Assembly: GCF_018219815.1 (NCBI RefSeq)
Contig: NZ_JADMKU010000005.1
Location: 124,001 to 188,000 of the forward strand
Reading direction: 5' to 3'
Length of the DNA stretch: 64,000 nt
Source of the DNA: Thalassovita aquimarina
Lineage (GTDB): Bacteria > Pseudomonadota > Alphaproteobacteria > Rhodobacterales > Rhodobacteraceae
The notes under the pieces are model-generated. The model had not been told where the DNA came from and ran no database searches. It worked only from the letters and a program-made list of their open reading frames with translations. Below, piece by piece: positions 49,966-64,000 of this stretch. Within the stretch, counting starts at the first letter, position 1, and each line of letters begins with the position of its first letter. Position numbers and translations under genes: made by a program.

Positions 49966-50361
49966 TTACTGAACTTTTGTTACAATCTGGCTGTCAATAT
50001 ATTTGCGCCCGGCTTCCATCGCAGCACGGACAGCATCTGCTACACCAAGATGGCGGGATTTTGCCAGCTTGATCAACATCGGAAGATTGGCGCCATAGAG
50101 AATCCGGCGATTTTCGGGCTGGCAGGCCATCAGCGACAGGTTCGACGGCGACCCGCCGAACATGTCGGTCACAACCACGACGCCATGGCCATTGTCGACC
50201 GCGTCGGCGGCTTCGCAGATTTCGCGCTGTTTCTGGGCCCGGTCATGATCGGCGTCGATGGAAATGGCGCGAATACCGGACTGGGGGCCGACGACATGTT
50301 CGATCGCGGCCAGGTATTCCTGCGCCAATCCCCCATGCGCGACAATGACGATGCCGATCAC
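49966..50361 (-). CDS. PTS EIIA component, mannose/fructose type
   Basis: A 131-aa EIIA-Man domain. The phosphorylated His9 is in [14 protein letters not shown] (4-17), and [17 protein letters not shown] (about 60-76) is the typical active-site lid. No IIB, IIC or IID permease is encoded nearby, so this protein is regulatory. It overlaps rapZ by four bases (ATGA) and is followed by HPr after two bases. In related alphaproteobacteria this gene (manX) belongs with chvI, chvG and hprK. Confidence 0.92.
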
Positions 50362-51302
50362 GCTTGCCTTCCCTCGCTTTCGTCCGCTGTCTCTTGCGAT
50401 GGTGTTGCGGCGGCGCTTGCCTGCCTCCGCTCAAGTTCGCGATGTCTAGTTGACACCTGCCAGCCGTCCTCCGCAAGGGCCTGAGACATCTTTTCTGCAA
50501 TTGCAACCGACCTGTGTTGGCCGCCGGTACAACCGAACCCGATGGCGAAATGCGCCTTGCCCTCGTCCATATAGGCCGGCAGCAGCATCCTGGCCAAGTC
50601 GAGCATCTTGTCGAAGAACGGCGCAAAACGCGGATCCTGCGCGACATAATCGGCGATCTCGGCGTTGCGCCCGTCGAGGGCGCGCAGCGATTGTTCCCAG
50701 TAGGGATTTCGCAGGAAACGGCAATCCAGCACCATGTCCATGCCGCGCGGCAAACCGCGCTTGTAGGAAAAGGAATTCACCGACACCGCCAACCGGGCGC
50801 CGCTTTCGGGACTGATCAGCCGTTCGACCTCGGCGCGCAATTCGTGCGGGGTCAGATCGGAACTGTCGATCAGGATATCCGCCCGCGCCCGGATCGGCAC
50901 CAGCAGGTCCAGTTCCCGCCGCACGCCCTGTTCGGGGCCTTCCGCCGGGGCCAACGGGTGCCGCCGCCGGGTTTCGGAAAACCGCCGCAGCAAAACGTCA
51001 TAGCGGCAATCGAGATACAGAAGCTCGGTTTCCACCCCCGGCGCGTCGCGCAGGCTGTCGAGCGTTTCGATCAGCGCGTTGACGGAAAAATCGCGGTTGC
51101 GCACGTCCAGACCCAGCACCAGGTCGCGCCCCAGCGGCGGGTCTTCCAGCAGGCGCGGCAGCAGGCTCAGCGGCAGGTTGTCGATCGCCTCGAAGCCCAG
51201 ATCCTCCATCGTGCGGATCGACGTGGTGCGCCCGGCACCGGACGGCCCGGTGACGAGAACGATGCGCTGTCGCGCCACGCTGTTTGTTTCGGCTTCGCTC
51301 AT
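50358..51302 (-). CDS. rapZ: RNase adapter protein RapZ-like nucleotide-binding protein
   Basis: A 314-aa member of the YvcJ/RapZ family. The P-loop is [11 protein letters not shown] (17-27), with Arg replacing the usual Lys, as is common in the family; [32 protein letters not shown] (about 93-112) and the C-terminal [18 protein letters not shown] (about 263-280) are signatures. In E. coli RapZ guides RNase E to the GlmZ small RNA and binds glucosamine-6-phosphate; the alphaproteobacterial role is unclear. Between hprK and the EIIA gene, it fits the same operon. Confidence 0.92.
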
Positions 51303-51305
51303 GGC

Positions 51306-51743
51306 TCAGTCCCGCCTGCCCGACTTGAGATAGTGCAGAATCGCAGCCGGAAAATGCTGCATCTGCACATTGTGCAGCAAAGGCCGGGAAAGGCCCAGAA
51401 CCGTAACGGTCTTTTTCTCCGGCAGACGCAAGGTTTCTTCCCGGCCCAGATCAACCCAGAGACGGGCACGGGCCGGGCCCACGGCTACGGCGTTCAGGAT
51501 ACCGACGAAACGGGCCTCGATCTGGCCGCGAATGGTGCCGGGCGCATCGGCCCACAGGGTTTCGCCCTCTTTCCAGATGCATGTGCGGTCATCGGAAACC
51601 AACCCGGCGCCCAAGGCCATCAACTGCAGCGCCAGCGCGGATTTTCCCGCCCCCGCGCGGCCGGTGATCACCACCGCACGGCCGTCAAGCGCGACGGTAC
51701 TGGCATGCAGGATCAGGCAATCTTTGTCCGCCGGGCGGCCCAC
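51306..51743 (-). CDS. hprK: HPr kinase/phosphorylase, short form
   Basis: A 145-aa protein containing only the catalytic domain of HprK, as in other alphaproteobacteria. The P-loop is VITGRAGAGKSALALQ (25-40), and LVSDDRTCIW (about 49-58) and the RGQIEARFVGI segment (about 73-83) match the second and third signatures. The N-terminal ~130-residue domain of the Gram-positive enzyme is missing. It would phosphorylate Ser49 of HPr. No ATG fits; GTG 51743 begins two bases after the chvG stop, a coupled arrangement. GTG start confidence is moderate. Confidence 0.88.
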   Translation of the reverse strand: MGRPADKDCLILHASTVALDGRAVVITGRAGAGKSALALQLMALGAGLVSDDRTCIWKEGETLWADAPGTIRGQIEARFVGILNAVAVGPARARLWVDLGREETLRLPEKKTVTVLGLSRPLLHNVQMQHFPAAILHYLKSGRRD

Positions 51744-51744
51744 G

Positions 51745-53463
51745 TCACACCGGCAGGCCCACGACGAAGCGCGCGCCCAGCGGTTCCGAGGTCGCGTCGG
51801 CATCGGTGGGGCGGATGTTTTCGGCCCAGATCACGCCGCCATGAGCCTCGACGATCTGCTTCGAAATCGCCAGGCCAAGGCCGGAATTGTTGCCGAACTG
51901 GTTTTCCGGCCGCTCCGAATAGAACCGCTTGAACACCTTGGTCAGCGCCTCTTCGGGGATGCCCGGGCCGGTATCTTCGACGACAACCAGGACCCGGTTT
52001 TCGCGCTGACGGGCCCAGACGCGGATCGCGTCGCCCTGTTCGCAGAAACTGATCGCGTTGGTAATCAGGTTGACGAAGACCTGCGCCAGTCGCGCTTCCA
52101 GCCCCATGATCTCGATCGGCTTGTCGGGCAGGTCGGTGATGAAATCGACCCCCTGCTCACCCGCCTGCTGGCCCAGGTATTCGCTCAGGTTGCTCAGCAT
52201 TTTCAGCAGATCGAAGGATTCCTGTTCTTCCTTCACCAGTTCGCTGTCGAGCCTTGAGGCGTTGGAAATGTCGCTGACCAACCGGTCCAGCCGCCGCACG
52301 TCGTGATCGATCACGTCTAAGAGCTTTTCGCGCTGATCATCACGCTTGGCGACCCGCAGCGTGCCCACGGCCGAACGCAGGCTGGCCAGCGGGTTCTTGA
52401 TCTCGTGCGCCACGTCGGCGGCGAATTGTTCGTTGCCGTCGATCCGGTCGTAAAGCGCCGACACCATGCCGCGCAGCGCGCCGGACAGCCGGCCGATTTC
52501 ATCGGGCCGCGCGGTCAGGTCGGGAATGCGGATGCGGCCGCCGGTCTTCTGCCGCTTGTCGCGCGCGCCGCCGAGTTCGGCAGCGGTGGCCAGATCGGCC
52601 AGCGGATTGGCGATGGTCGAGGCCAGAACGAGGCTCAGCCCGATCGACACCAGAATGGCGATCAGGAACATCTGCAGGATGCGTTCGCGCTGCGCCCGCA
52701 CCAGGTGATCGACCTCGCCAGCGGCGCTGGTCAGGGCCACGACCCCGACGATGCTGCCGCCCTGTTCGATTGGGGTGGCGGCGGTGAAGATCTTGGTGCC
52801 GCCGGTGGCCGGCCCCATGTCGATTTCGGCTTCGCCGGACAGGACGTTACCGGCCAGTTTCCGCGCCCGCTCCTCGACGCTGGGCAGCGGCGCCGGCGCC
52901 GTCCTCGGCGACGACAGGCCCGACATCCTGTCCCAGAGCCAGGTCAGGCCGTCGACGATCAGCGTCGGCCCCGGTTCGGGCATGTCTGCGGTCGGGGCAC
53001 CGCCCTGCCCTTCGATACTGGAAACCAGCGCGATGTCGCGATCGAAGACAAAGGCTTCGATCCCTTCGCGCAGGTCCAGCCCGCCAAGCAGGCGCGCCAC
53101 ATCCACCGCGCCGCCCGCGGCAATTTCCGAAGCGGCGCCCTCGGGCAGCTGCGCCTCGATCACGTCGGCGATCAGTTCCGCCTGCGCCACCAGGGAATTG
53201 GCCCGTTCCACCGCGAATGAATCGCGCGATGAATTCAGCAGCAGCACCCCGGCAACCAGGATGTTCAGCGCGATCAGGTTGAAGGTGATGATCTTGCGGG
53301 TCAGCGGCGACCGGTTCAACGACAGCCAACCGCGCCGTTCCCGCCGAACGCGCAGTTCGCTGTCCACGGTGCTGTCGGGGGCGACAAAATCGTCGCCCAA
53401 GACCACGTCGCCACCTTGTCGTGTCGCCGTATCCCGCAAATTTACCCCTTCAGCCAACGCCAT
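51745..53463 (-). CDS. chvG: sensor histidine kinase ChvG
   Basis: A 572-aa membrane kinase. Transmembrane helices at about 58-78 and 260-282 flank a periplasmic domain of ~180 residues; then HAMP (about 282-335), HisKA with His353 (DVAHEIKNPLASLRS), and an HATPase domain with LITNAISF, EDTGPGIPEEAL and GLGLAISKQIVEAHGG. ChvG (ExoS) senses acidity or envelope cues and is held by ExoR in rhizobia. The cytoplasmic N-terminus (about 1-50) is unusually long. It lies two bases after chvI and directly ahead of hprK. Confidence 0.93.
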   Translation of the reverse strand: MALAEGVNLRDTATRQGGDVVLGDDFVAPDSTVDSELRVRRERRGWLSLNRSPLTRKIITFNLIALNILVAGVLLLNSSRDSFAVERANSLVAQAELIADVIEAQLPEGAASEIAAGGAVDVARLLGGLDLREGIEAFVFDRDIALVSSIEGQGGAPTADMPEPGPTLIVDGLTWLWDRMSGLSSPRTAPAPLPSVEERARKLAGNVLSGEAEIDMGPATGGTKIFTAATPIEQGGSIVGVVALTSAAGEVDHLVRAQRERILQMFLIAILVSIGLSLVLASTIANPLADLATAAELGGARDKRQKTGGRIRIPDLTARPDEIGRLSGALRGMVSALYDRIDGNEQFAADVAHEIKNPLASLRSAVGTLRVAKRDDQREKLLDVIDHDVRRLDRLVSDISNASRLDSELVKEEQESFDLLKMLSNLSEYLGQQAGEQGVDFITDLPDKPIEIMGLEARLAQVFVNLITNAISFCEQGDAIRVWARQRENRVLVVVEDTGPGIPEEALTKVFKRFYSERPENQFGNNSGLGLAISKQIVEAHGGVIWAENIRPTDADATSEPLGARFVVGLPV

Positions 53464-53465
53464 GA

Positions 53466-54167
53466 TCAGTCTTCGTTATATCGGTAGCCGATGCCGTAAA
53501 GCGTCTCGATCGCCGCGAAATCGGCGTCGGCCGACCGCATCTTCTTGCGCAGGCGCTTGATATGGCTGTCGATGGTGCGGTCATCAACATAGACCTGATC
53601 GTCATAGGCCACATCCATCAGCTGATCGCGCGATTTCACGAAACCCGGACGTTGCGCCAGCGCCTGCAGAAGCAGGAATTCGGTCACCGTCAGCGACACA
53701 TCCTTGCCCTTCCAGGTCACCGAGTGGCGCAGCGGATCCATCCGCAGGTCGCCGCGTTCGATCACCTTGGTTTCTTCGGTTTCCGGCACCTCGACGCCCG
53801 CCTGGACATCCTGCCGGCGCAACAGCGCGCGGATGCGCTCGACCAGCAGACGCTGCGAAAACGGTTTCTTGACGTAATCGTCGGCCCCCATGCGCAGGCC
53901 CAGGACCTCGTCGATCTCATCATCCTTGGAGGTCAGGAAAATGACCGGCATGGTGGTTTTCTGGCGCAACCGCTGCAGAAGGTCCATGCCGTCCATCCGC
54001 GGCATCTTGATATCCAGAACGGCCATGTCCGGAAGCTTTCGGTTGAATGCATCCAGAGCGGATTGGCCGTCGTTATAGGTTTCAACCTCGAACCCTTCTG
54101 CCTCAAGGGTCATGGCGACGGATGTCAGGATATTCCTGTCATCGTCCACAAGGGCGATCTTCGACAT
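53466..54167 (-). CDS. chvI: response regulator ChvI
   Basis: A 233-aa OmpR/PhoB-type regulator. The receiver domain (1-120) has VDDDRN (7-12), the phosphoacceptor Asp52 in [13 protein letters not shown], and the conserved Thr and Lys ([13 protein letters not shown]). The winged-helix domain (about 140-233) ends [12 protein letters not shown] 54167 with AAAGGA nine bases upstream is preferred; the extension to 54236 lacks conservation. In rhizobia ChvI governs envelope polysaccharide, acid response and central metabolism. It is divergent from pckA, an arrangement conserved across the class. Confidence 0.94.
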
Positions 54168-54533
54168 CGGAGAATTCCTTTTACTGCTCTTATTGCCTAT
54201 TTTTTTCCTCATTATGCCCATTTTCCCCCTTGGCAATCAATCGGAAACTGCGAATCAGCCGTGCCATGCACCAGATTTCACGGCAAATTCCTCAACCAAT
54301 GGCTAATTTACCTCACATTCGGCATCGGCACCGGGCGGCGATTGGGGGATTTTCGCCGTGATTGCGCTAACTTGCATTTGGTTGCGCTAACTGCGCCAAA
54401 CCGTCCTGTTCCTTCATGGAAACGTCATGTTAAGAGGCCGGTTATCGGGTGCAGCATCCGGTCGGGAACGGGAGAGGGTTCCGTCCCCGCAGGGAACATC
54501 GCCGCAACTCGCGCGGCTACAGGAGCTTGGCAT
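54168..54533. promoter_or_regulatory. chvI-pckA divergent control region with tandem 11-bp repeats
   Basis: The 366-bp gap has no gene. TTGCGCTAACT occurs at 54362-54372 and again at 54382-54392, exactly 20 bp apart, i.e. two helical turns on the same face of the DNA. Each contains GCGCTAAC, like a half-site of LacI-family regulators of central carbon metabolism (CceR of Rhodobacter, PckR of rhizobia). The region near chvI is AT-rich (TATTTTTTTCC around 54198-54208). The pckA ribosome site AGGAG is at 54521-54525. Confidence 0.6.
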
Positions 54534-56132
54534 ATGACATTTGGACGGGTAAACCCGCAATTCCAGCTGGAAGATCAGGGGATCAAGGGGCTGGGCGATG
54601 TCTTTTACAATCTTATGGAGCCCGCGCTGATCGAAGCCGCGGTCAAGAACGGCGAAGGCACGCTGGGCAAAGGCGGCGCCTTCCTGGTCACCACCGGCAA
54701 GTTCACCGGCCGGTCGCCCAAGGACAAGCACGTCGTCAAGACCGACAGCGTCGCCGACAAGATCTGGTGGGAAAACAACGCGGCGATGTCGCCCGAAGGG
54801 TTCGACAACCTCTATGCCGATATGCTGGAGCATATGAAGGGCAAGAAATACTATGTCGAGGACCTGGTCGGCGGCGCCGATCCGGAACATGCGATCAACG
54901 TCCGCATGGTGACCGAACTGGCTTGGCACGGGCTGTTCATCCGTCACCTGCTGCGCCGTCCCGAACGCGAAGCGCTGGACAGCTTCATCGCCGATTTCAC
55001 CGTCATCAACTGCCCCAGCTTCAAGGCCGATCCCGAACGCCATGACTGCCGCAGCGACACCGTGATCGCGATGAACTTCGACAAGAAGCTGATCCTGATC
55101 GGCAACACCGAATACGCCGGCGAGAACAAGAAATCGGTGTTCACCCTGCTGAACTACCTGCTGCCGGAAAAAGGCATCATGCCGATGCACTGCTCGGCCA
55201 ACCACGCCATCGGCAACCCGGTCGACACCGCGATCTTTTTCGGCCTGTCGGGCACCGGCAAGACCACCCTGTCGGCCGACCCGTCGCGCACCCTGATCGG
55301 CGATGACGAACACGGCTGGTCGGATCGCGGCACCTTCAACTTCGAAGGCGGCTGCTATGCCAAGACCATCGGCCTGAACCCCGAGGCGGAACCGGAAATC
55401 TACGCCACCACCTCGAAATTCGGCACCGTGATCGAAAACATGGTCTATGACGAAGAAACCTTCGAACTGGATTTCGAGGATTCCAGCCTGACCGAAAACA
55501 TGCGCTGCGCCTATCCGCTGGAATATATCTCGAATTCCTCGGACAGCGCGCTTGGCGGCCATCCGAAGAACGTGATCCTGCTGACCTGCGACGCCTATGG
55601 CGTGCTGCCGCCGATCGCGCGGCTGACCCCGGCGCAGGCAATGTATCACTTCCTGTCCGGCTTCACCTCGAAGACCCCGGGCACCGAACGCGGCGTGGTG
55701 GAACCCGAACCCACCTTCTCGACCTGCTTCGGCGCCCCGTTCATGCCGCGCCGGCCGGAAGCCTACGGCAACCTGCTGCGCGAAAAGATCGGCAAGCACG
55801 GCGCGACCTGCTGGCTGGTCAACACCGGCTGGACCGGCGGCGCCTTCGGCACCGGTTCGCGGATGCCGATCAAGGCCACCCGCGCGCTGCTGACCGCCGC
55901 TCTGGAAGGATCGCTGAACGAGGTTGAATTCCGCAAGGACGAAAACTTCGGCTTCGACGTGCCGGTCGATGTGCCGGGCGTCGACCCCCAGCTGCTGGAC
56001 CCGCGCCAGACCTGGGCCGATCCCGCCGCCTATGACGCGCAGGCCGCCAAGCTGGTGCAGATGTTCGCAGACAATTTCGAACAGTACCTGCCTTACATCG
56101 ACGAGGATGTGAAAGCCGCCGCGATCGGCTGA
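54534..56132 (+). CDS. pckA: phosphoenolpyruvate carboxykinase (ATP)
   Basis: Turns oxaloacetate into PEP with ATP, the entry step of gluconeogenesis from organic acids and acetyl-CoA. The 532-aa enzyme shows RSPKDKHVV (about 64-72), the P-loop [16 protein letters not shown] (237-252, kinase 1a), LIGDDEHGW (kinase 2, metal Asp) and [20 protein letters not shown] (about 436-455). ATG 54534 has AGGAG at the right distance; the longer open frame upstream overlaps chvI on the other strand. Expression should depend on carbon source, and on the tandem repeats upstream by inference. A strong terminator follows. Confidence 0.97.
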
Positions 56133-56162
56133 TCGCCGGACGTACCCTGCAACACGCCAAAG

Positions 56163-56195
56163 ACGCCCCGGCCATTGGCCGGGGCGTTTCTTTTT
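56163..56195 (+). terminator. rho-independent terminator of pckA
   Basis: ACGCCCCGGCC (56163-56173) pairs perfectly with GGCCGGGGCGT (56177-56187), loop ATT, followed by TTCTTTTT. Confidence 0.93.
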
Positions 56196-56236
56196 GCACG
56201 CTCTCCGTGGATCGCGCGGCAGCGGAAACCCGGGTT

Positions 56237-56956
56237 TCAGGCCGCGTGCGCCGGTTCCATCACTTCCTTGGTCGGCACATGCATGACATGGCGCAAATCC
56301 TCCAGCGCCATCCAAACCATGTTGCAATCCAGCGGCTCGTTGCGGCCCTCGATCTTCCAGCTCAGGCAATAGGGATCGCAATGCATGTAGCCTTCGCGTT
56401 CGGCCAGCCCGCGCCGGGCGATCGGACGCAGCATGAAGCCGAACAGAAAATCCGGCTGCCAGTGCAACATCGCCGTCAAAAACGAAAAACGGGCAAGCAA
56501 ATCGATCAATCCGCGGCCGCGATAGGCCGAATCATCTTTAAGCCACATTTCACCATGATACACCGCGCGGCCGGTAATCTTGGCCGCTCCGGGCCCCGGG
56601 CGGAACCACGATCCATCGTGATCGATGCCCACTCCACCGGGCGGAAAATCCCCGAAACGGGACGAAAGATACCGCGCCAAGGTTTGATCATACAGGTCCA
56701 GAAGGCGCATTGCCTGGGTATGAACCAAGACCCCCTTGGAATTGCGGCCTATGATCCAAATGCCTCGGGCTGCTGGTAAAAATTGCTTTGTCGGATCAAA
56801 GGGAGGCCCCAGCGGCTGTTCCGGTCGGCCATCCTTCACGATCTGGGCATATCTTTCGAAATCGTCACCGACTTCGATATGCAGATGCTGGGACTTCAGG
56901 GCATTGGCGGTCTCAGACAGGTACCGCGCTCCATCAAATACATCTTGTATGCTCAT
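56237..56956 (-). CDS. hypothetical protein with GNAT-like C-terminal half
   Basis: A 239-aa protein of no family I can name. The segment DSAYRGRGLIDLLARFSFL (about 142-160) has the R-G-x-G-x arrangement that binds the acyl-CoA pyrophosphate in GNAT enzymes, followed by HWQPDFLFGFMLRPIARRGL and AEREGYMHCDPYC, resembling the strand-helix end of that fold. It could be an acyltransferase, though sequence support is thin. AGGAG eight bases before ATG 56956 is strong. It lies 40 bp after the LysR-like gene, so the pair forms an operon; the upstream member probably controls it. Cytoplasmic; no signal peptide. Confidence 0.72.
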   Translation of the reverse strand: MSIQDVFDGARYLSETANALKSQHLHIEVGDDFERYAQIVKDGRPEQPLGPPFDPTKQFLPAARGIWIIGRNSKGVLVHTQAMRLLDLYDQTLARYLSSRFGDFPPGGVGIDHDGSWFRPGPGAAKITGRAVYHGEMWLKDDSAYRGRGLIDLLARFSFLTAMLHWQPDFLFGFMLRPIARRGLAEREGYMHCDPYCLSWKIEGRNEPLDCNMVWMALEDLRHVMHVPTKEVMEPAHAA

Positions 56957-56996
56957 TTTGGACTCCTGTGCTGCACACAACAACAGGATGCCCAAC

Positions 56997-57899
56997 CTAG
57001 GCGGAAATGTCTTTCGATTGTTCCCGCATCGCGGGAGCGCCCTCCATCAGTTCCTCCGCCGGCATGGATTCGATAATCTCCTGCGACAGGCCCTCGATCT
57101 GCAGATCATAGCTCCGCACCACGATCGATCCCATCGCGAAACTGTCGTCGGGATAGCGGCATCCCAGCAACAGCCGCTTGAAGCTGATCGGTTCCGGCCC
57201 GCCCTCTTCGCCCCGGTCCATCAGCGTGTGAACGTGGTCATAACGCAGCCCGCGACTGGCGCGGATTTCCTCGAACGGCTGCGACAGCTGCACCGCGTGG
57301 GACGCCCCGCCGGGCAGCGCCGGAACCGCGCGGCCGATCGAACTGCTTTCCCAACGCCAGCCATACCATGTCGCATAGGACGATTTGCTGCCCACCGCGG
57401 TGCAGATCCAGTCCTCGGCCGATTTGCGGAACACCATCAGGCTTTCGCGGATCGGATCGAAGGCTTCATGGGTGATCACCCCTTCCGCCTCGGCCCAGCA
57501 TTTCACCGCCTTTTTCAGCAATTCGTTCTGGCCGGTCCAGATATCGCTGATCGGATGCTGCTGCAGGTAAAAACGCCAGCCGTCCGGATCTTCCTTGCCG
57601 ATATGGAACAGGCCGCCGATATGACCGGTTTCATTGTTCAGCCACGCGGCGCCGCGCGCCTGGATATCCTGCGCCTCGCGCAGGCAACTGCGGCCCGCAT
57701 CGGTCAACTGGTATTGCCGGTCGACGATGACGAAAAGCTGCTCGCCCTTGAGTTCTTCGAGGATGTTGATATGGCGGCGCACCGTCTGCCGGGTGGAATC
57801 CAGTTGCGCGACCGTGTGTGACAGGTTCAACGTCTCCGCCAAGGAGGTAAAGGAGCGTAAAAGTTCGAACAGCAACGGGTGATTCTTCAACTCCGCCAT
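56997..57899 (-). CDS. LysR-like winged-helix protein with an unrelated C-terminal domain
   Basis: A 300-aa protein. Residues ~8-75 look like a LysR-type DNA-binding domain: LRSFTSLAETLNLSHTVAQL, then STRQTVRRHINILEELKGEQ, then LFVIVDRQYQLTDAGR. The remaining ~220 residues do not resemble the periplasmic-binding-protein-like sensor of LysR regulators; they include SKSSYATWYGWRWESSSIGR (about 163-182) and a Trp-rich WTGQNELLKKAVKCW stretch. It may be a regulator with a new ligand domain. Downstream is the GNAT-like gene; upstream, divergent, is an XRE gene. Codon usage is like the neighbours. Confidence 0.72.
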   Translation of the reverse strand: MAELKNHPLLFELLRSFTSLAETLNLSHTVAQLDSTRQTVRRHINILEELKGEQLFVIVDRQYQLTDAGRSCLREAQDIQARGAAWLNNETGHIGGLFHIGKEDPDGWRFYLQQHPISDIWTGQNELLKKAVKCWAEAEGVITHEAFDPIRESLMVFRKSAEDWICTAVGSKSSYATWYGWRWESSSIGRAVPALPGGASHAVQLSQPFEEIRASRGLRYDHVHTLMDRGEEGGPEPISFKRLLLGCRYPDDSFAMGSIVVRSYDLQIEGLSQEIIESMPAEELMEGAPAMREQSKDISA

Positions 57900-57986
57900 G
57901 TGACCCCTTATGGTAGCGTCAGGCGTTAACTACACTCGGAATAGTAACAACCAGCACCACTTCCACGTTGAAAAGACTGCTTGACC

Positions 57987-58000
57987 CCTGTTTTTACAGG
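57987..58000. promoter_or_regulatory. 14-bp inverted repeat in the LysR-like/XRE divergent gap
   Basis: CCTGTTTTTACAGG is a perfect inverted repeat (CCTGT/ACAGG around TTTT) 88 bp before the LysR-like start and 132 bp before the XRE start. It overlaps a TTGACC (57981-57986) -35-like box. It is a good candidate operator for one of the flanking regulators. The remainder of the gap (58001-58131) is AT-rich, with a near-palindrome GATGATTTTTATT...AATTCATC at 58034-58068. Confidence 0.45.
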
Positions 58001-58131
58001 CCTTCGAAAGCAGGTAAAGCCCCCCTATACTGATGGATGATTTTTATTCCCGTCAAGAAAATTCATCATCAGTTGATTGAATGGATCCGAATTGTTTTCT
58101 TCTTCTGGTAGTCTAGAGATGGAAGTTAGAT

Positions 58132-58506
58132 ATGTCGCACCCAGTAGATGTTCACGTAGGCAAGAAACTGAAGAACCTTCGCGTGCTGCGCGGACTGACC
58201 CAAACCGATGTCGCCAAGGGGTTGAATATCTCGTTCCAGCAGGTTCAAAAGTACGAACTTGGCCGTAACCGCATTTCGGCCAGCAAGCTGTTCGAAATTT
58301 CCAATATCCTGAACGTTCCGCCGTCCTACTTCTTTGAAGGGCTGGACCAGACCGCCGACGAAAACACCCCGGTGATCGACGAGGAAACCGCGCGCATCGC
58401 ATCGGTCTTCAGCAAGATCAAGGATGAACGCCTGAAGGCGCAGATCCGGTCCTTCGTCGACGCGGTTGCCGGTTATGTGCCCGCCGACGACGCGACGACG
58501 CACTGA
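58132..58506 (+). CDS. XRE family helix-turn-helix regulator
   Basis: A 124-aa regulator. The helix-turn-helix (about 10-65) reads VGKKLKNLRVLRGLTQTDVA then KGLNISFQQVQKYELGRNRI and SASKLFEISNILNVP, a typical Cro/CI domain with the QKYE-x-GxN-x-IS signature common in alphaproteobacteria. The C-terminal ~45 residues are helical and may dimerise. ATG 58132 is preceded by GATGGAAGTTAGAT with a GGA core. It is divergent from the LysR-like gene and convergent with the TauE/SafE gene, which ends four bases beyond its stop. Confidence 0.9.
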   Translation: MSHPVDVHVGKKLKNLRVLRGLTQTDVAKGLNISFQQVQKYELGRNRISASKLFEISNILNVPPSYFFEGLDQTADENTPVIDEETARIASVFSKIKDERLKAQIRSFVDAVAGYVPADDATTH

Positions 58507-58509
58507 TCG

Positions 58510-59280
58510 TCAGTAGAAAACGGCGCGGCGCACAAGGTTCAGCGCCGCGACGAAAAGCACGATCAGGGTGACACGGCGAAACGTCGCCTGATCGATCCGG
58601 TCATGCACCTGCAGCCCGATCCAGGTCCCGGCAAGCGCCGGGATCAGCAGCGCGGCGGAAAACATCGCGGTGTCGCTGCGCACCACGCCGGACCCGATAT
58701 GCGCGCCCAAGAGCGCCACCGCGCCAAGACCATAGATCACGCCCTGGATGCGCAGCTGTTCAGCCTTCGGCGTGTCCAGCGCAGTCAGGTACAGCACTGT
58801 GGGCGGCCCCCAGACGCCGGACATGCCGCCGACCAGACCGGCAAATCCGCCGATCGCCGCCTCGATCGCGCCCCGCCCGCTTTCCGGCAGCCGCAGCCGA
58901 ACCCCCATCAGCTGGATCAGCACGAACACCGAAACCGGTGCGCCGATCAGCAGCAGCATCACCTGCGGCGAAATCAGCCGCACCAGTTGCGCGCTGGCCA
59001 GGATCGTCACCAGCCCGACCAGCAGGAACACCCGGAACCGCTTGACCGAAGCCCAGGCCGCCGCCCGCCCCTGCCGCAGCGCCTGCCAGCCATTGGTCGC
59101 CACGGTCGGCAACATCAGCCCCGCCAGCGCCAGCTGCGGGTCGATGAAACTGCTCAGGCCGGAAATCAGGATCATCGGCATGGCGAAGCCCACCATCCCC
59201 TTGATGAACCCTGCCAGCAGGGCGATCACGCAGGCAGACGCGAAGACCTGCGGCGACATGAGCGTAAAAAGCGTATCCAT
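58510..59280 (-). CDS. TauE/SafE (TSUP) family transporter
   Basis: A 256-aa inner-membrane protein with eight or so hydrophobic segments. The TSUP fold is shown by the repeated motif pair AGFIKGMVGFAMPMILISGL (23-42) and GGFAGLVGGMSGVWGPPTVL (143-162), including the conserved G-x-GGG-like MVGFAMP/GMSGVWGPP sites. The family exports sulfite, sulfoacetate or other organosulfonates. ATG 59280 gives a full first helix. The substrate cannot be deduced from the neighbours. The frame remains open far upstream, but that part is antisense to mcd. Confidence 0.88.
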   Translation of the reverse strand: MDTLFTLMSPQVFASACVIALLAGFIKGMVGFAMPMILISGLSSFIDPQLALAGLMLPTVATNGWQALRQGRAAAWASVKRFRVFLLVGLVTILASAQLVRLISPQVMLLLIGAPVSVFVLIQLMGVRLRLPESGRGAIEAAIGGFAGLVGGMSGVWGPPTVLYLTALDTPKAEQLRIQGVIYGLGAVALLGAHIGSGVVRSDTAMFSAALLIPALAGTWIGLQVHDRIDQATFRRVTLIVLFVAALNLVRRAVFY

Positions 59281-59470
59281 AAGATCTGTTAGAGCACAGC
59301 CCCGAAATGCTGCAACAGGAAAACGCTCGGTCCGTTCGGGGGCCCCTGTGGAATATCGCACAATTCTTGGCTTTAGCTCGCGGGACACTACTTTCAAGCG
59401 TGAAACCCCGCCCTCCCCCATAGCCAACACGCAACTTTCGAACCTCCAAGTGTCGCAATTGGTATTTTTG

Positions 59471-59481
59471 TTGCGCTGCAA
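59471..59481 (+). promoter_or_regulatory. TTGC-GCT-GCAA palindrome upstream of mcd
   Basis: TTGCGCTGCAA (59471-59481), followed by CTGCAAAAGG, stands 45 bp before the mcd ATG in the 246-bp gap between divergent TauE/SafE and mcd. RamB/ScfR-type regulators of acyl-CoA metabolism bind TTTGCAAA-like sequences, so this may be an operator. No clear -35/-10 pair was found. Confidence 0.4.
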
Positions 59482-59526
59482 CTGCAAAAGGAATATGTCA
59501 CACCGCAGCAATTGAGGATATGATTC

Positions 59527-61206
59527 ATGGCCCATGACGGACAGGACCTGACGATGACCGATACCGCACTTCTCCCCGACCTGCTGACATTGACCGGCGC
59601 GGCCGTGGCCCCGGTCAATGCATTGGTGGAAACCGCAACCGCCCATGTACGCGATGCCGTGTCGCGCGACGGCCGGGTGTCCGGCGCCGCGCTGGAAGCC
59701 GACCAGGCGATGGCGCATGGCCTGTCCTGGCTGGCCACCTATGGCCAGTCGCTGACCCAGATGCAGGCCTGGGCCGAGCGCCTGACGGCCGATGGCAAGT
59801 TCGGAGAGATGGAACAACTGATCCACCAGATCGCCTTTGGCGAATACCTGGCCCAGATCAAGGGCGGCATCCCGATGAGCCAGGGCGAAATCGCCCGCCT
59901 GTCCGACCTGGGCGTGGATGGTGCGTCGCTGGAAACCGACGCGATTTCGACACTGATCGCGCGCGGCAACAGCCAGGCCGCCCGCACCCGCCTGGTCGAG
60001 CTGATGCGCGACAATGCCGGCCACGCCACCTTCGGCGCCAGCGGGTTGGACGAGGAACTGGAAATGATCCGCGAACAGTTCCGCCGCTATGCCGATGAAC
60101 GGGTCGCCCCGAACGCCCACGACTGGCACCTGAAGGACGATTTCATCCCGATGGAGATCATCGAGGAACTGGCCGAAATGGGCGTGTTCGGCCTGACCAT
60201 CCCGGAAGACTTCGGCGGGCTGGGCCTTTCCAAGGCATCGATGGTGGTGGTGTCCGAAGAACTGTCGCGCGGTTATATCGGCGTCGGCTCGCTCGGCACC
60301 CGCTCGGAAATCGCCGCCGAACTGATCTTGGCCGGCGGCACGGATGCGCAGAAGGAACAGTGGCTGCCGAAACTGTCCAGCGGTGAAATCCTGCCCACCG
60401 CCGTGTTCACCGAACCCAATACCGGGTCCGACCTCGGCAGCTTGCGCACCCGCGCGGTCAAGACGGAATCCGGCGATTATGAAATCACCGGGAACAAGAC
60501 CTGGATCACCCACGCCGCCCGCACCCATGTGATGACCCTGCTGGCCCGTACCGATCCCGACAGCACCGATCACCGCGGCCTGTCGATGTTCCTGGCGGAA
60601 AAGACCCCGGGCGACGACGAAAACCCGTTCCCGACCGAAGGCATGACCGGCGGCGAAATCGAGGTTCTGGGCTATCGCGGCATGAAGGAATATGAACTGG
60701 GCTTCGACCAGTTCAAGGTGAAGGGCGAGAACCTGCTCGGCGGGGTCGAGGGCCAGGGCTTCAAGCAGCTGATGAAAACATTCGAGGCCGCCCGCATCCA
60801 GACCGCCGCCCGCGCCATCGGCGTGGCGCAGAACGCGCTCGAGGTGGGCATGCAATATGCCGAGGACCGCAAGCAGTTCGGCAAGTCGCTGATCCACTTC
60901 CCGCGCGTCGCCAACAAGCTGGCGATGATGGCGGTGGAAATCATGGTGGCACGGCAGCTGACCTATTTCTCGGCCTGGGAAAAGGACCACGACCAGCGCT
61001 GCGATCTTGAGGCCGGGATGGCGAAGCTGCTGGGCGCCCGCGTCGCGTGGGCGGCGGCGGACAACGCGCTGCAGATCCACGGCGGCAACGGCTTCGCGCT
61101 GGAATACCAGATCAGCCGCATCCTGTGCGATGCACGGATCCTGAACATCTTCGAAGGCGCGGCCGAGATTCAGGCCCAGGTGATCGCCCGGCGGTTGCTG
61201 GGCTGA
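59527..61206 (+). CDS. mcd: (2S)-methylsuccinyl-CoA dehydrogenase
   Basis: A flavin-dependent acyl-CoA dehydrogenase that should oxidise methylsuccinyl-CoA to mesaconyl-CoA in the ethylmalonyl-CoA pathway. The 559-aa protein has a ~170-residue N-terminal extension (GEMEQLIHQIAFGEYLAQI, with IKGGIPMSQGEIARL next) before the usual dehydrogenase core, which is characteristic of Mcd. The core shows FTEPNTGSDLGSLRTRAV (about 297-314), GNKTWITHAAR, the RIQTAARAIGVAQNAL helix and QIHGGNGFALEYQISRILCD (516-535). ATG 59527 has GAGGA nine bases before it; ATG 59554 is an alternative. A terminator follows. Substrate assignment rests on architecture plus mce elsewhere in the window. Confidence 0.82.
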   Translation: MAHDGQDLTMTDTALLPDLLTLTGAAVAPVNALVETATAHVRDAVSRDGRVSGAALEADQAMAHGLSWLATYGQSLTQMQAWAERLTADGKFGEMEQLIHQIAFGEYLAQIKGGIPMSQGEIARLSDLGVDGASLETDAISTLIARGNSQAARTRLVELMRDNAGHATFGASGLDEELEMIREQFRRYADERVAPNAHDWHLKDDFIPMEIIEELAEMGVFGLTIPEDFGGLGLSKASMVVVSEELSRGYIGVGSLGTRSEIAAELILAGGTDAQKEQWLPKLSSGEILPTAVFTEPNTGSDLGSLRTRAVKTESGDYEITGNKTWITHAARTHVMTLLARTDPDSTDHRGLSMFLAEKTPGDDENPFPTEGMTGGEIEVLGYRGMKEYELGFDQFKVKGENLLGGVEGQGFKQLMKTFEAARIQTAARAIGVAQNALEVGMQYAEDRKQFGKSLIHFPRVANKLAMMAVEIMVARQLTYFSAWEKDHDQRCDLEAGMAKLLGARVAWAAADNALQIHGGNGFALEYQISRILCDARILNIFEGAAEIQAQVIARRLLG

Positions 61207-61238
61207 TCCGCCTTCACAAACGGATTCTTCCCCAACTG

Positions 61239-61265
61239 GCGCGGCCCTTCGGGCCGCGCTTTTTT
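61239..61265 (+). terminator. rho-independent terminator of mcd
   Basis: GCGCGGCCC (61239-61247) pairs with GGGCCGCGC (61251-61259) around a TTCG-type loop; TTTTTTG follows at 61260-61266. Confidence 0.92.
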
Positions 61266-61270
61266 GTTTC

Positions 61271-61325
61271 GCCGGGCCGGTGGCCCGGCAATGCCTCCGG
61301 CGGGGATATTTGGAAAAAGAAGAAG
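61271..61325. repeat. interspersed element copy 2 (GC hairpin plus GGGATATTT and polypurine tract)
   Basis: GCCGGGCC (61271-61278) pairs with GGCCCGGC (61282-61289). The block at 61303-61325 begins GGGATATTT and ends AAAAAGAAGAAG. This block is the reverse complement of the first copy at 613-635 with 21 of 23 matches (GG versus TT in the middle). It lies between the mcd terminator and the convergent SLAC1/TehA gene. Confidence 0.65.
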
Positions 61326-61336
61326 CCGGGAGACGG

Positions 61337-62311
61337 TTATTCCGGCTGGCAGATTTCCCCGTCCCTGATTGCCCGCAGGGTCCGGAACACAAGCCCCACG
61401 ATGATCACCAGCAGCACCACCAGCAGGCCCGAGCCGATCAGCTTGTGCACCGGGCTTGCGGCATTGGCGGCGAAGTTGAAGCTGGCGATGGTCACCGCGG
61501 CGAAGGGGAAGCTCAGCGCCCAGAAGCTGAGCGCGAAGGGCAGCTTGACGATCCGCGGCAGCTGCATCGCCACGATCAGCGCGAACAGGTAGGCCCCGTT
61601 GAGCAGGATGCGGGCGAAGGCATCGACCTCGCCATAAAGCCGCACCCAGGCGACGAAGGCGACGGCGGGCGGCGCGATCAGGATCACCAGCGTCGGCTGC
61701 AACCGCCCCGGCAGCGGGTCGTGGAAGATCAGCCGGTTCATCACAAGCGTCATCAGCACGATCCAGAAAATCAGACCGACCGACATGAAATACCAGCTGA
61801 GTTCGACATAGCCGAGCGGCACGCCGGCGATCGGCACGATCACGTTGCCCACCGCCGGGATGAACCAGGCCGGGCTCAGGTGACCGGTCTGGAACGCCCG
61901 GGCGCCGATCCAGCCGGACACAACCGCGATGGTCAGGACACCATGCGACGCCGCGCCGATCAGCCACAGCGCCTCGGCCAGCTGCGCACTGCGCGGCAGG
62001 GTCGCAGTCGCCAGCAGCAGCAGGGAAATGGAAATCGCCGGGAAAAAGGCCAGCCGCACCGGATGCTTCCATTCCGCCACCACCGCCTGCGGATATTGCA
62101 GCGCCTTGGCGACATAGCCCATGGCGATCAGCAACGCGATGAACATGGTCGCGCCATAGGCGACGGTCGAGACAGTGCCGCCAAGACCGAAAGCCAGTTC
62201 CGCCGCGTGCAGCGCCAGCGTCAGCCCCGCCATGCCCATGACGATGGCAAAAAAGGTCACCGGGTAATGTTCCAGCCGGTTACCGCCTTGTTCCTGCAGG
62301 GGGTTGGTCAT
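61337..62311 (-). CDS. SLAC1/TehA (TDT) family anion channel or transporter
   Basis: A 324-aa membrane protein with about ten hydrophobic helices. Family features are LEHYPVTFFAIVMGMAGLTL (13-32), HPVRLAFFPAISISLLLLA (about 83-101), SPAWFIPAVGNVIVPIAGVP (about 146-165) and MTLVMNRLIFHDPLP (about 190-204). Relatives include TehA (tellurite resistance in E. coli) and the plant SLAC1 anion channel; dicarboxylate or sulfite export is also described in the superfamily. GGAAGGAG before ATG 62311 is strong. The frame extending upstream to 62386 is not conserved. Substrate unknown. Confidence 0.88.
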   Translation of the reverse strand: MTNPLQEQGGNRLEHYPVTFFAIVMGMAGLTLALHAAELAFGLGGTVSTVAYGATMFIALLIAMGYVAKALQYPQAVVAEWKHPVRLAFFPAISISLLLLATATLPRSAQLAEALWLIGAASHGVLTIAVVSGWIGARAFQTGHLSPAWFIPAVGNVIVPIAGVPLGYVELSWYFMSVGLIFWIVLMTLVMNRLIFHDPLPGRLQPTLVILIAPPAVAFVAWVRLYGEVDAFARILLNGAYLFALIVAMQLPRIVKLPFALSFWALSFPFAAVTIASFNFAANAASPVHKLIGSGLLVVLLVIIVGLVFRTLRAIRDGEICQPE

Positions 62312-62428
62312 GCCCCGTCTCCTTCCCGTGTGCGCGCGAATGCATAGTGTTGCCAGCCATGCCACGCGGCGGCAAGGGACAGCCATGACTTAAATCAAGA
62401 TTTTCCTTGGCATCCGGGCCCTTGGCGC

Positions 62429-63988
62429 TCAGGCCCCGACGATCCGGGCACTCATCAACGCGCCGACATGGTGACTGCGCTCGAGGTAGCGGGCGATCTG
62501 CACTTCGGCCGCATGGCCGGCAAAGCGCGGCGCAAGGCAGCGCAGCAATAGCCATTCCGACAGCGCCATGAAATCGGCAGCCTGTTCCGCCGGGGCTTCG
62601 GAACCGGCCAGCGCCGCGCGCGCCCGGGTCCACAGAGCGACCTCTTCGGGGGTGGCGTTGGCGGCGGCGAAAGCGGCGAACCGGTCGGCGGCAGCGGAGG
62701 CGCTGCCGCCGAGCAGACGGGTGGCCAGCGTCAGCGCATGGATGCCGTTTGCGCCCTCGTAGATGCGGCAGATGCGGGCATCGCGCCAGACCTGGTCGAT
62801 GCGGTATTCCTGCAGGTAGCCGTAACCGCCCAGGCACTGGATGCCCAGATCGGCGGCGCGGCTGGCGGCGTCGGTGCAGAAATGCTTGGCGATCGGGGTG
62901 AGGAATTCCACCAGCGCCGGGTCGTCGCCCTTTTCCAGTTCGACCACCGCGAGGTGGCAGATCGCCCGGCCCAGCAGCGACAGCGCCCGCATCTCCGCCA
63001 GCATGTTGCGCACGTCGGGGTGCTGATCCAGCGTCACCGGCTGACCGTCGGGCCCGCGCCCCTGCTGCCGTGCGGCGCAATAGGCGGCCGCGATGTCATG
63101 GGCGCGGCTGGCATGCGCCACGCCCTGCAGCGCCACGTCGATGCGGGCGTGGTTCATCATGGTGAACATCGCCCTGAGCCCGGCGCCTTCTTCTCCGATC
63201 AGTTCGGCCCGTGCGCCGTCGAAGGCCATCTGGCAGGTGGGCGAGGCATGCAGCCCCATCTTTTCCTCGATCCGGGTCACGGTGATGGCGTTGCGCGCAC
63301 CGTCAGGCAGATGCGAGAGACAAGCGAACAGCGACAATCCCTTCACGCCGCTGCCCGTCTCGCCGGTACGGGCCAGCACCAGGTGGAAAATGCCTTCGCT
63401 CAGGTCCTGATCACCGCCCGAGATGAAGATCTTTTCGCCGCTGATCGCCCAGCCGTCGCCATCCCTTACCGCGCGGGTGCGCACCCGGCTCAGGTCCGAT
63501 CCGGCGCCGGGTTCGGTCAGGCACATGGTCGACAGCCAATCGCCCGAAGCCAGTTTCGGGATGTAGGCCGCTTTCTGTGCCTCGTCGCCGTATTCCAGCA
63601 GCACCCGCACCGCGCCGGGCACCAGCCCGGTCACCATCTGCAGCGCATGGTTGGCGCCGGTGAAAATCTCCGATGAGCAGGCCAGCGCAATGCCGCCCAT
63701 CCCCTGCCCGCCGAATTCCTCCGGCACGGTCAGCGACGGCCAGCCCTGGTCTGCATAGCTCTGGTACAGTTCCCGAAACCCGTCCGGCATCGCCACCCGG
63801 CCGTCTTCCAGCCGGCATCCCTGCCTGTCGCCCACTTCATCCGTGGGGGCGATTTCGCTTTCGGCAAAGCTGGCGAAATGCTGGGTGATTTCGCGGATAA
63901 GGTCGCCATCCCAATCGGGCAGGGCATCGGCGCCGACCTTTTCGAGCGTGAACAGGATGTCGTCGACAGGGGCTGCGAAGGGTTTCAT
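62429..63988 (-). CDS. acyl-CoA dehydrogenase, DmdC-like
   Basis: A 519-aa dehydrogenase of the long form with an ~30-residue leader (APVDDILFTLEKVGADAL) shared with 3-methylmercaptopropionyl-CoA dehydrogenase DmdC. Landmarks are WPSLTVPEEFGGQGMGGIAL (about 83-102), CLTEPGAGSDLSRVRTRAV (about 158-176), MGLHASPTCQMAFDGARAEL (about 247-266) and QCLGGYGYLQEYRIDQVWRD (388-407) with RICRIYEGANGIHALTLATR following. It is ~70 residues shorter than typical DmdC at the C-terminus, so the DMSP role is not assured. AAGGAT before ATG 63988 is the ribosome site, so the gene is complete in the window. Confidence 0.85.
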   Translation of the reverse strand: MKPFAAPVDDILFTLEKVGADALPDWDGDLIREITQHFASFAESEIAPTDEVGDRQGCRLEDGRVAMPDGFRELYQSYADQGWPSLTVPEEFGGQGMGGIALACSSEIFTGANHALQMVTGLVPGAVRVLLEYGDEAQKAAYIPKLASGDWLSTMCLTEPGAGSDLSRVRTRAVRDGDGWAISGEKIFISGGDQDLSEGIFHLVLARTGETGSGVKGLSLFACLSHLPDGARNAITVTRIEEKMGLHASPTCQMAFDGARAELIGEEGAGLRAMFTMMNHARIDVALQGVAHASRAHDIAAAYCAARQQGRGPDGQPVTLDQHPDVRNMLAEMRALSLLGRAICHLAVVELEKGDDPALVEFLTPIAKHFCTDAASRAADLGIQCLGGYGYLQEYRIDQVWRDARICRIYEGANGIHALTLATRLLGGSASAAADRFAAFAAANATPEEVALWTRARAALAGSEAPAEQAADFMALSEWLLLRCLAPRFAGHAAEVQIARYLERSHHVGALMSARIVGA

Positions 63989-64000
63989 CTCGGGATCCTT

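Follow-up and report, generated by a model that had tools for sequence, protein, structure and literature searches.

A conserved gene pair of a GNAT-fold protein and a sensor regulator in Thalassovita aquimarina and other Alphaproteobacteria

Why would a protein with an acetyltransferase-like motif and no recognised family be encoded directly behind a regulator whose sensing half is not that of its own family? The question is raised by a three-gene cassette at positions 56237-58506 of a 64,000-nucleotide (nt) stretch of the Thalassovita aquimarina genome (the window, meaning the whole stretch that was analysed). The cassette encodes P0001, which resembles Gcn5-related N-acetyltransferases (GNATs); P0002, a regulator with a LysR-type winged helix; and P0003, a divergently encoded XRE-type regulator (Table 1). 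An earlier note, made from the DNA letters, had read the cassette as a small self-regulated unit in which the GNAT-like protein makes or modifies a small molecule sensed by one of the regulators. Its description of the genes has held: the LysR-like winged helix joined to a C-terminal domain other than the usual LysR sensor, the gap of exactly 40 nt, the R-G-x-G segment of the 239-residue protein, and the divergent XRE gene were all recovered.

The conserved side-by-side pairing of the P0001 and P0002 families in related genomes suggests, from comparison of sequences, that a small molecule made or altered by the enzyme is read by the switch, and the evidence supports a module that joins one enzyme family to one sensor domain and in many cases includes an XRE gene. 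The reading frames of all three genes look real because nonsynonymous divergence (dN) from a related locus, L037, is far below synonymous divergence (dS), the latter being close to saturation in these comparisons (P0001, dN 0.09 and dS 1.4; P0002, 0.12 and 1.05; P0003, 0.05 and 0.80).

A gene pair kept together in related genomes

A search of genome contigs gave 164 relatives of P0002, of which the best 80 were retained. A P0001 homologue lies directly downstream on the same strand in 71 of these 80 loci, across gaps of 7-232 nt, and a divergent XRE homologue is present in 76; the four loci in which no XRE gene was found are three from Rhodospirillales or Pelagibius and L041. From the side of the enzyme, 30 loci were taken with 1.5-kb flanks, the window's own counted, and 20 of them have a P0002 homologue directly upstream, 18 of these together with the XRE gene. 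Whether the two genes stay adjacent in other genomes had been posed as a check by the earlier note, and in most of these loci they do. The closest named relatives of the cassette belong to Thalassovita, and, of 198 Rhodobacteraceae genomes sampled, 28 have P0001 homologues, T. aquimarina among them. In two Tateyamaria loci a tandem GNAT pair stands behind the LysR-like gene (L072:5934-7508 and L074:5934-7509), and the GNAT is single in L087 and L108.

P0001 matches no family in Pfam or NCBIfam up to an expectation value (E) of 10, nor in PADLOC up to E 0.01, and as a profile it found no match among Protein Data Bank (PDB) sequences up to E 10. Its AlphaFold model, with a predicted local distance difference test score (pLDDT) of 90.3 from an alignment of 73 sequences, gave 132 Foldseek matches at E <= 0.001, and the best 50 of the 132 (TMq 0.35-0.47) are nearly all acetyltransferases, plus phage Mom. 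By its modelled fold, P0001 is a GNAT-superfamily protein, as its short motif had led the earlier note to propose. This motif, Y-R-G-R-G, is presumably motif A, the coenzyme A (CoA)-binding motif of GNATs, for which the consensus is R/Q-x-x-G-x-G/A. It is kept in the family, with R146 in 71 and G149 in 72 of the 73 rows of alignment A6, and the final G/A of the consensus is absent from P0001. An acidic residue occupies the position of E136 in every one of the 73 rows of A6 and of the 30 rows of alignment A1.

Kinship with LuxI was assessed by profile comparison. In hhalign, four profiles of the P0001 family aligned to PF00583 rows with probabilities of 47.8-91.6, the highest from the widest alignment, and weakly to LuxI rows (18.6-53.6), over 33-103 columns around residues 60-90 and beyond; all four scored higher against the PF00583-type GNATs. 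No LuxI protein is named among the best 50 of the 132 Foldseek matches. Membership of P0001 in the LuxI family was rejected on the lack of a PF00765 match and on this nearer kinship to ordinary GNATs. A scan of the T. aquimarina genome with PF00765 found three places, none at the cassette, and the two over the cut-off are LuxI-family genes at G000:C67:103880-104398 and G000:C34:519-1010 (L123 and L124).

A sensor domain on different DNA-binding heads

Like LysR-type regulators, P0002 has an N-terminal winged helix and a divergent neighbour gene; unlike them, it has a C-terminal part with no match to a LysR substrate-binding domain in Pfam up to E 10. The winged helix is its sole Pfam match over cut-off, and neither PF03472 nor GerE was matched. 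The profile and structure searches suggested in the earlier note left P0001 without a Pfam or NCBIfam family and the C-terminal part of P0002 without a Pfam match over cut-off. The AlphaFold model of P0002 (pLDDT 88.7, alignment of 79 sequences) was matched mostly through its head, since most of the 50 top Foldseek matches span about 80 columns, the size of a winged helix. The matches that could bear on the sensor are weak, to a LOV/PAS protein, 8q5e (rank 50, E 3.5e-3, TMt 0.56), and to TtgV (ranks 39 and 42), the latter over about 300 columns but with a root-mean-square deviation of 13-16. Against PAS_5 rows the sensor profile scored weakly with LysR-headed rows only (E 0.14-0.53) and at E 5e-4 with wider rows. 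Three sensor-bearing neighbours of GNAT homologues elsewhere (L153, L155, and L140) pass the cut-off of PF07310 (PAS_5), L144 falls narrowly short, and a search with eight other sensor proteins gave nothing in Pfam at E <= 1 anywhere along their length. Since fold and profile evidence both lean that way, the P0002 sensor is possibly PAS-like. An identity with plain PAS_5 was rejected on the weak profile comparison and on the finding that the sensor profile matches just one of 30 PAS_5 loci.

The sensor recurs with other heads among more distant relatives. The nine weakest GNAT matches in Rhodobacteraceae (E 2.5e-10 or weaker; L111-L117, L121, and L122) all lie tail-to-tail with a sensor-domain gene, and in eight of the nine the partner looks XRE-headed by alignment; of two such partners checked in Pfam, L115 is over the HTH_3 cut-off and L112 under it. 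At L111:4594-5019 the sensor part is open and a stretch resembling a helix-turn-helix (HTH) is in a different reading frame, which may mean that the gene is broken. When LysR-headed and other non-XRE rows, with no XRE-headed row in the query, were compared with XRE-headed sensor rows, the profiles aligned with a probability of 95.6 (E 1.2e-8); LysR-headed rows alone gave 58-70 (E 4e-5 to 1e-4). In these alignments, the sensor domain is common to regulators with different DNA-binding heads.

The GNAT family was found in 40 of 385 sampled alphaproteobacterial genomes, and a class-wide set of 28 loci (L128-L155) was assembled, with the window-type loci L126 and L127 set aside. A sensor protein accompanies 21 of the 28, in 20 cases within about 1.5 kb and in the other, L129, as an XRE-headed protein at the place already counted as L116 among the nine weak matches. 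The sensor profile found 0 of 28 ordinary GNAT loci, 0 of 30 LuxI loci, and 0 of 10 ordinary LysR loci, beside the single PAS_5 locus already mentioned. Homologues of P0003 adjoin 5 of the 28 loci, compared with one LuxI control and none of the GNAT, PAS_5, or LysR controls. A sample of 398 genomes from the phylum, in which the share outside the class is unspecified, contained 10 GNAT-family matches, all inside the class. In a GNAT tree of 76 rows, the partner label changes 10 times against a shuffled mean of 40.9, a value as low in 0 of 200 shuffles; members with XRE-headed partners form one side of a branch with support 100/100, and members from rhizobial plasmids one side of another (99/97). 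The link of enzyme and sensor extends beyond the clade of the window, though not to the 14 rhizobial plasmid loci described below. Other neighbours of GNAT homologues include a phytochrome-type histidine kinase (PHY, HisKA_2) at L143:2-1339 and, directly upstream of the GNAT, genes with a sulfatase match under the Pfam cut-off at L133:1-1296 and L134:2299-3624.

A regulator and an enzyme may also be neighbours by shared descent only and serve separate functions. In favour of this, the loci have a common ancestry, some of them lack the GNAT, and none of the 14 plasmid loci has the sensor. The pairing nevertheless recurs in tandem and tail-to-tail, with different heads, while the controls stand at 0-1, and inheritance of mere neighbours is an improbable account of this.

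The divergent promoter region and the XRE gene

The 232-nt stretch between P0002 and P0003 had been credited by the earlier note with a perfect 14-bp inverted repeat at 57987-58000 (CCTGTTTTTACAGG, reverse complement CCTGTAAAAACAGG), which proved to have arms of just 5 bp around TTTT. It is the one repeat of that kind (arms 5, loop 0-10) in the stretch; 1000 shuffles gave a mean of 2.6, and 88% reached the observed count, so the repeat is at chance level. Nor is it kept in nine related intergenic regions aligned with this one, as read by eye, and its role as an operator was rejected on both grounds. A larger imperfect palindrome at 57993-58018 is likewise not kept in the alignment with those nine regions and was dropped.

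Two other elements are conserved (Table 1), derived from 77 XRE/LysR intergenic regions (76 loci plus the window). A 20-bp element lies about 100 nt from the XRE start in most of the 77, and a second element about 52 nt from it, also in most. In some loci of a sister clade the 20-bp element is a near-perfect dyad (L018: GTGGATGATTTATCATACAG). When 18 loci were scored separately, six without a recognised divergent XRE gene stayed at shuffle level, and the 12 with one scored 6.6-21.1 against shuffle maxima of 3.6-9.6, L014 merely tying. Six of these 12 are window-type (L002-L004 and L006-L008), at least some of their genomes having also served in building the element, and the other six are from the sister clade and independent of it. 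Because its presence follows the XRE gene, the 20-bp element most likely belongs to the XRE protein, as a putative site. When 31 genomes were scanned with up to three mismatches allowed, 8 of the 10 cassette genomes had it at the cassette, T. aquimarina itself and G592 being the exceptions; there were four further matches in those ten genomes, so no wide regulon is evident, and the idea of one was dropped. The idea of a small self-regulated unit survives in part: between the divergent genes the promoter region contains a conserved element resembling an operator, which fits self-regulation of a regulatory unit with a GNAT-fold protein, and the 14-bp repeat as its operator does not stand.

P0003 has a paralogue elsewhere in the T. 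aquimarina genome (51% identity over residues 1-77). The HTH of P0003 resembles antitoxin models, all far under cut-off; the sole PADLOC matches were to the HTH region of this protein, and a PHROGs search gave nothing useful. A GNAT toxin held in check by an XRE or LysR-like antitoxin would account for XRE proteins adjoining GNATs and for this faint similarity. Such a toxin–antitoxin pair is very improbable: P0001 matches no known toxin family in Pfam, NCBIfam, or PADLOC, both regulators persist where the GNAT has been lost, and a sensor domain is not a known feature of antitoxins.

Like PraR, PhrR, and CdxA of Alphaproteobacteria, P0003 is a short XRE protein, and it may be kin to PraR. PraR, an XRE regulator of rhizobia, is reported to be inactivated by CinS within a quorum-sensing circuit; its consensus is TTGCAA (PMC4149787), and orthologues are described from several genera (PMC10688885).

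On the other flank of the cassette, past a terminator-like stem, lies a gene presumably of the pckA type. Terminator-like consensus matches number four in the region against 2.7 expected.

Table 1. Features of the cassette and its flanks, in window coordinates
Feature	Position	Strand	Description and basis
P0001	56237-56956	-	239-residue GNAT-fold protein of unrecognised family; ATG at 56956, stop codon ends at 56237; open reading frame (ORF), AlphaFold, Foldseek
Y-R-G-R-G	56510-56524	-	P0001 residues 145-149; conserved in alignment rows
P0001/P0002 gap	56957-56996		40 nt; both genes on the same strand, operon-like
P0002	56997-57899	-	300-residue regulator, LysR winged helix plus unrecognised sensor; ORF, Pfam, alignment, AlphaFold
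LysR-type winged helix	57690-57866	-	P0002 residues 12-70; PF00126 (HTH_1), E 1.4e-8, 35 bits, cut-off 26.6
Sensor region	57042-57638	-	P0002 residues about 88-286, possibly PAS-like; Foldseek, profile match
20-bp element	58033-58052	+	Consensus ATGGATGATTTATnTACCAT; window copy scores 14.6, weaker than consensus
Second element	58066-58079	-	CAATCAACTGATGA, consensus CnATCAATTGnTTA; 52 nt from XRE start, weaker than consensus
P0003	58132-58506	+	Divergent 124-residue XRE/Cro-type regulator; HTH_3, E 3.8e-15
Terminator-like stem	56161-56189	+	13-bp stem between pckA-like gene and P0001; consensus match only

Gene neighbours, mechanism, and rival explanations

Neighbouring genes in two branches of the GNAT family bear on what the enzyme acts upon. 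In a sister clade of the window GNATs (L013-L019, L021, L022, and L029), an ORF resembling major facilitator superfamily (MFS) transporters follows the GNAT immediately in 10 of 10 loci by sequence; the five tested all match MFS_1, and the best NCBIfam matches of three are two EmrB-type efflux proteins and one MdtL-type protein, all under their cut-offs. No LysR-like gene was found next to the GNAT in L021 and L022. A profile of this MFS family found nothing in the 28 class-wide loci, in the window from 50001 to 64000, or in control loci (0/28, 0/30, and 0/30). At L135:2658-3647 and L145:3-986 another MFS_1 gene is found close to the GNAT and in the same orientation, with a short ORF between the two.

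Detoxification is the main rival explanation: a toxic amine or antibiotic would be detected by the sensor and acetylated by the GNAT, with export by the MFS protein in one clade. Sensor, GNAT, and MFS gene occur together in that clade, two of the three MFS proteins searched in NCBIfam match EmrB-type efflux best and the third an MdtL-type protein, all under cut-off, and the spread of P0001 homologues through the family is patchy. The MFS family of the sister clade is absent from all 71 window-type loci, a search that did not cover other transporter families and in which L045, L091, and L094 contain less than 1500 nt downstream; the regulators persist without the enzyme in nine genomes; and the rhizobial relatives have neighbours that look biosynthetic. 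Weighed together, these points leave detoxification rather unlikely.

The rhizobial relatives came from plasmid records, of which P0001 matched 24 (23 rhizobial and one from Roseibium); the best 20 of the 24 homologues are all annotated as hypothetical proteins. Fourteen loci were opened (L292-L305), all rhizobial and pNGR234a among them. Within 5-6 kb of the GNAT, nine of the 14 have an annotated ATP-grasp-type gene and four an aminotransferase resembling EctB. Four of the ATP-grasp genes were tested, two being amino-acid ligases (PF18603) and two like D-Ala–D-Ala ligases. Because the plasmids are related, the ligases are a lead and not a statistic. An annotated LuxR-type gene lies near the GNAT in four of the 14 loci (H2, H5, H9, and H11); that of H2, the sole one tested, has the autoinducer-binding domain PF03472 (E 4.1e-31), 2.2 kb from the GNAT. 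The nearby EctB-like genes recall the EctA/EctB pair of a GNAT and a diaminobutyrate aminotransferase. In other respects the loci differ: the gene tables of the four EctB-like stretches, though incomplete, list an ATP-grasp gene and no EctC, and P0001 has no EctA match in Pfam, NCBIfam, or PDB sequence searches. A symbiotic diaminobutyrate aminotransferase is described in the literature (PMC10228743).

The transporter on the one hand and the ligase and aminotransferase neighbours on the other favour a small-molecule substrate. Alternatively, the target of acetylation may be a protein, the regulator or another one, whose activity is set in this way, so that no small-molecule product matters. 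GNATs elsewhere are known to acetylate regulators and other proteins, and the close pairing with regulators of several architectures would suit such a role. What stays constant in the pairing is the sensor domain and not the DNA-binding head, one clade has a transporter gene behind the GNAT, and the GNATs of rhizobial plasmids lie near small-molecule enzymes with no sensor found; protein acetylation is improbable.

The reading preferred here, to which a probability of about one half is given, is a self-regulated module of enzyme and sensor, with a small amine as the target of acylation by the GNAT and either its product or its substrate as what the sensor detects. P0001 would be a GNAT that depends on CoA and acylates a small metabolite at its amino group, and the sensor domain of P0002 would bind the product or substrate of P0001. 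Through its LysR winged helix, P0002 would then control how its own operon is transcribed, and other genes perhaps as well. P0003 may bind the conserved 20-bp element and restrain one or both promoters, as the co-occurrence of site and gene suggests.

Several observations weigh against such a module. The GNAT is missing from 9 of the 80 loci (L060, L073, L080, L095, L097, L100, L105, L107, and L109), which keep the LysR-like gene, the XRE gene, and the 20-bp element (9 of 9, scores 12.2-19.9, these loci having helped to build it), so the regulators can manage without the enzyme; a profile search that had no positive control found no GNAT elsewhere in the nine genomes. Conversely, the sensor and likewise the XRE gene are found in 0 of the 14 rhizobial plasmid loci, which tells against the pairing being general and means that the enzyme can manage without the sensor. 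No sensor was found in 7 of the 28 class-wide loci, and the gene lists of L118-L120, closer GNATs opened alongside the nine weak matches, contain no sensor neighbour. The iterated sensor profile was partly trained on class-wide loci in which it was then counted, and a profile made from LysR-headed rows only finds 5 of the 28. The loci share descent, so the counts are not independent events. The absence of the sister-clade transporter from the window-type loci belongs here too, and the acidity of the E136 position is not family-wide (23 E and 11 D in 57 rows). Among the GNAT-less loci, L100 and L107 from Sulfitobacter have as next gene one that looks pckA-like, as beyond the GNAT in the window.

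A further possibility, which overlaps with the enzyme–sensor module and is put forward tentatively, is cell–cell signalling of the LuxI/LuxR kind built from other parts. An unrecognised clade of GNATs would make a diffusible N-acyl molecule and the unrecognised sensor domain would read it; in the evolution of Alphaproteobacteria the sensor would have been passed among LysR, XRE, and other heads; a dedicated MFS protein would export the signal in one clade, and genomes without the enzyme would listen in. As in LuxI/LuxR systems, a GNAT-fold enzyme adjoins a one-component sensor regulator, and the regulators are retained in some genomes without the enzyme, much as LuxR solos are LuxR regulators without a synthase. 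The differences lie in the parts: P0001 lacks a PF00765 match and retains motif A for CoA binding, P0002 matches neither PF03472 nor GerE, and the two LuxI-family genes of the same genome lie apart from the cassette. Both eavesdropping and the sensing of a common metabolite would fit the nine genomes with regulators and no enzyme. A LuxI/LuxR-like signalling role of P0001, which the earlier note had raised, stays possible but unproven, and no paper on this gene pair was among the matches listed from open-licence PubMed Central papers.

One enzyme family and one sensor domain with an exchangeable head form the pattern expected of a synthase–receptor system. The loci yield a list of gene pairs for a ligand search, many of them in culturable roseobacters. 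If the ligand diffuses between cells, the pairs would represent a class of signalling missed by searches for LuxI/LuxR; if it stays inside the cell, they would still represent a new type of metabolite-sensing regulator.

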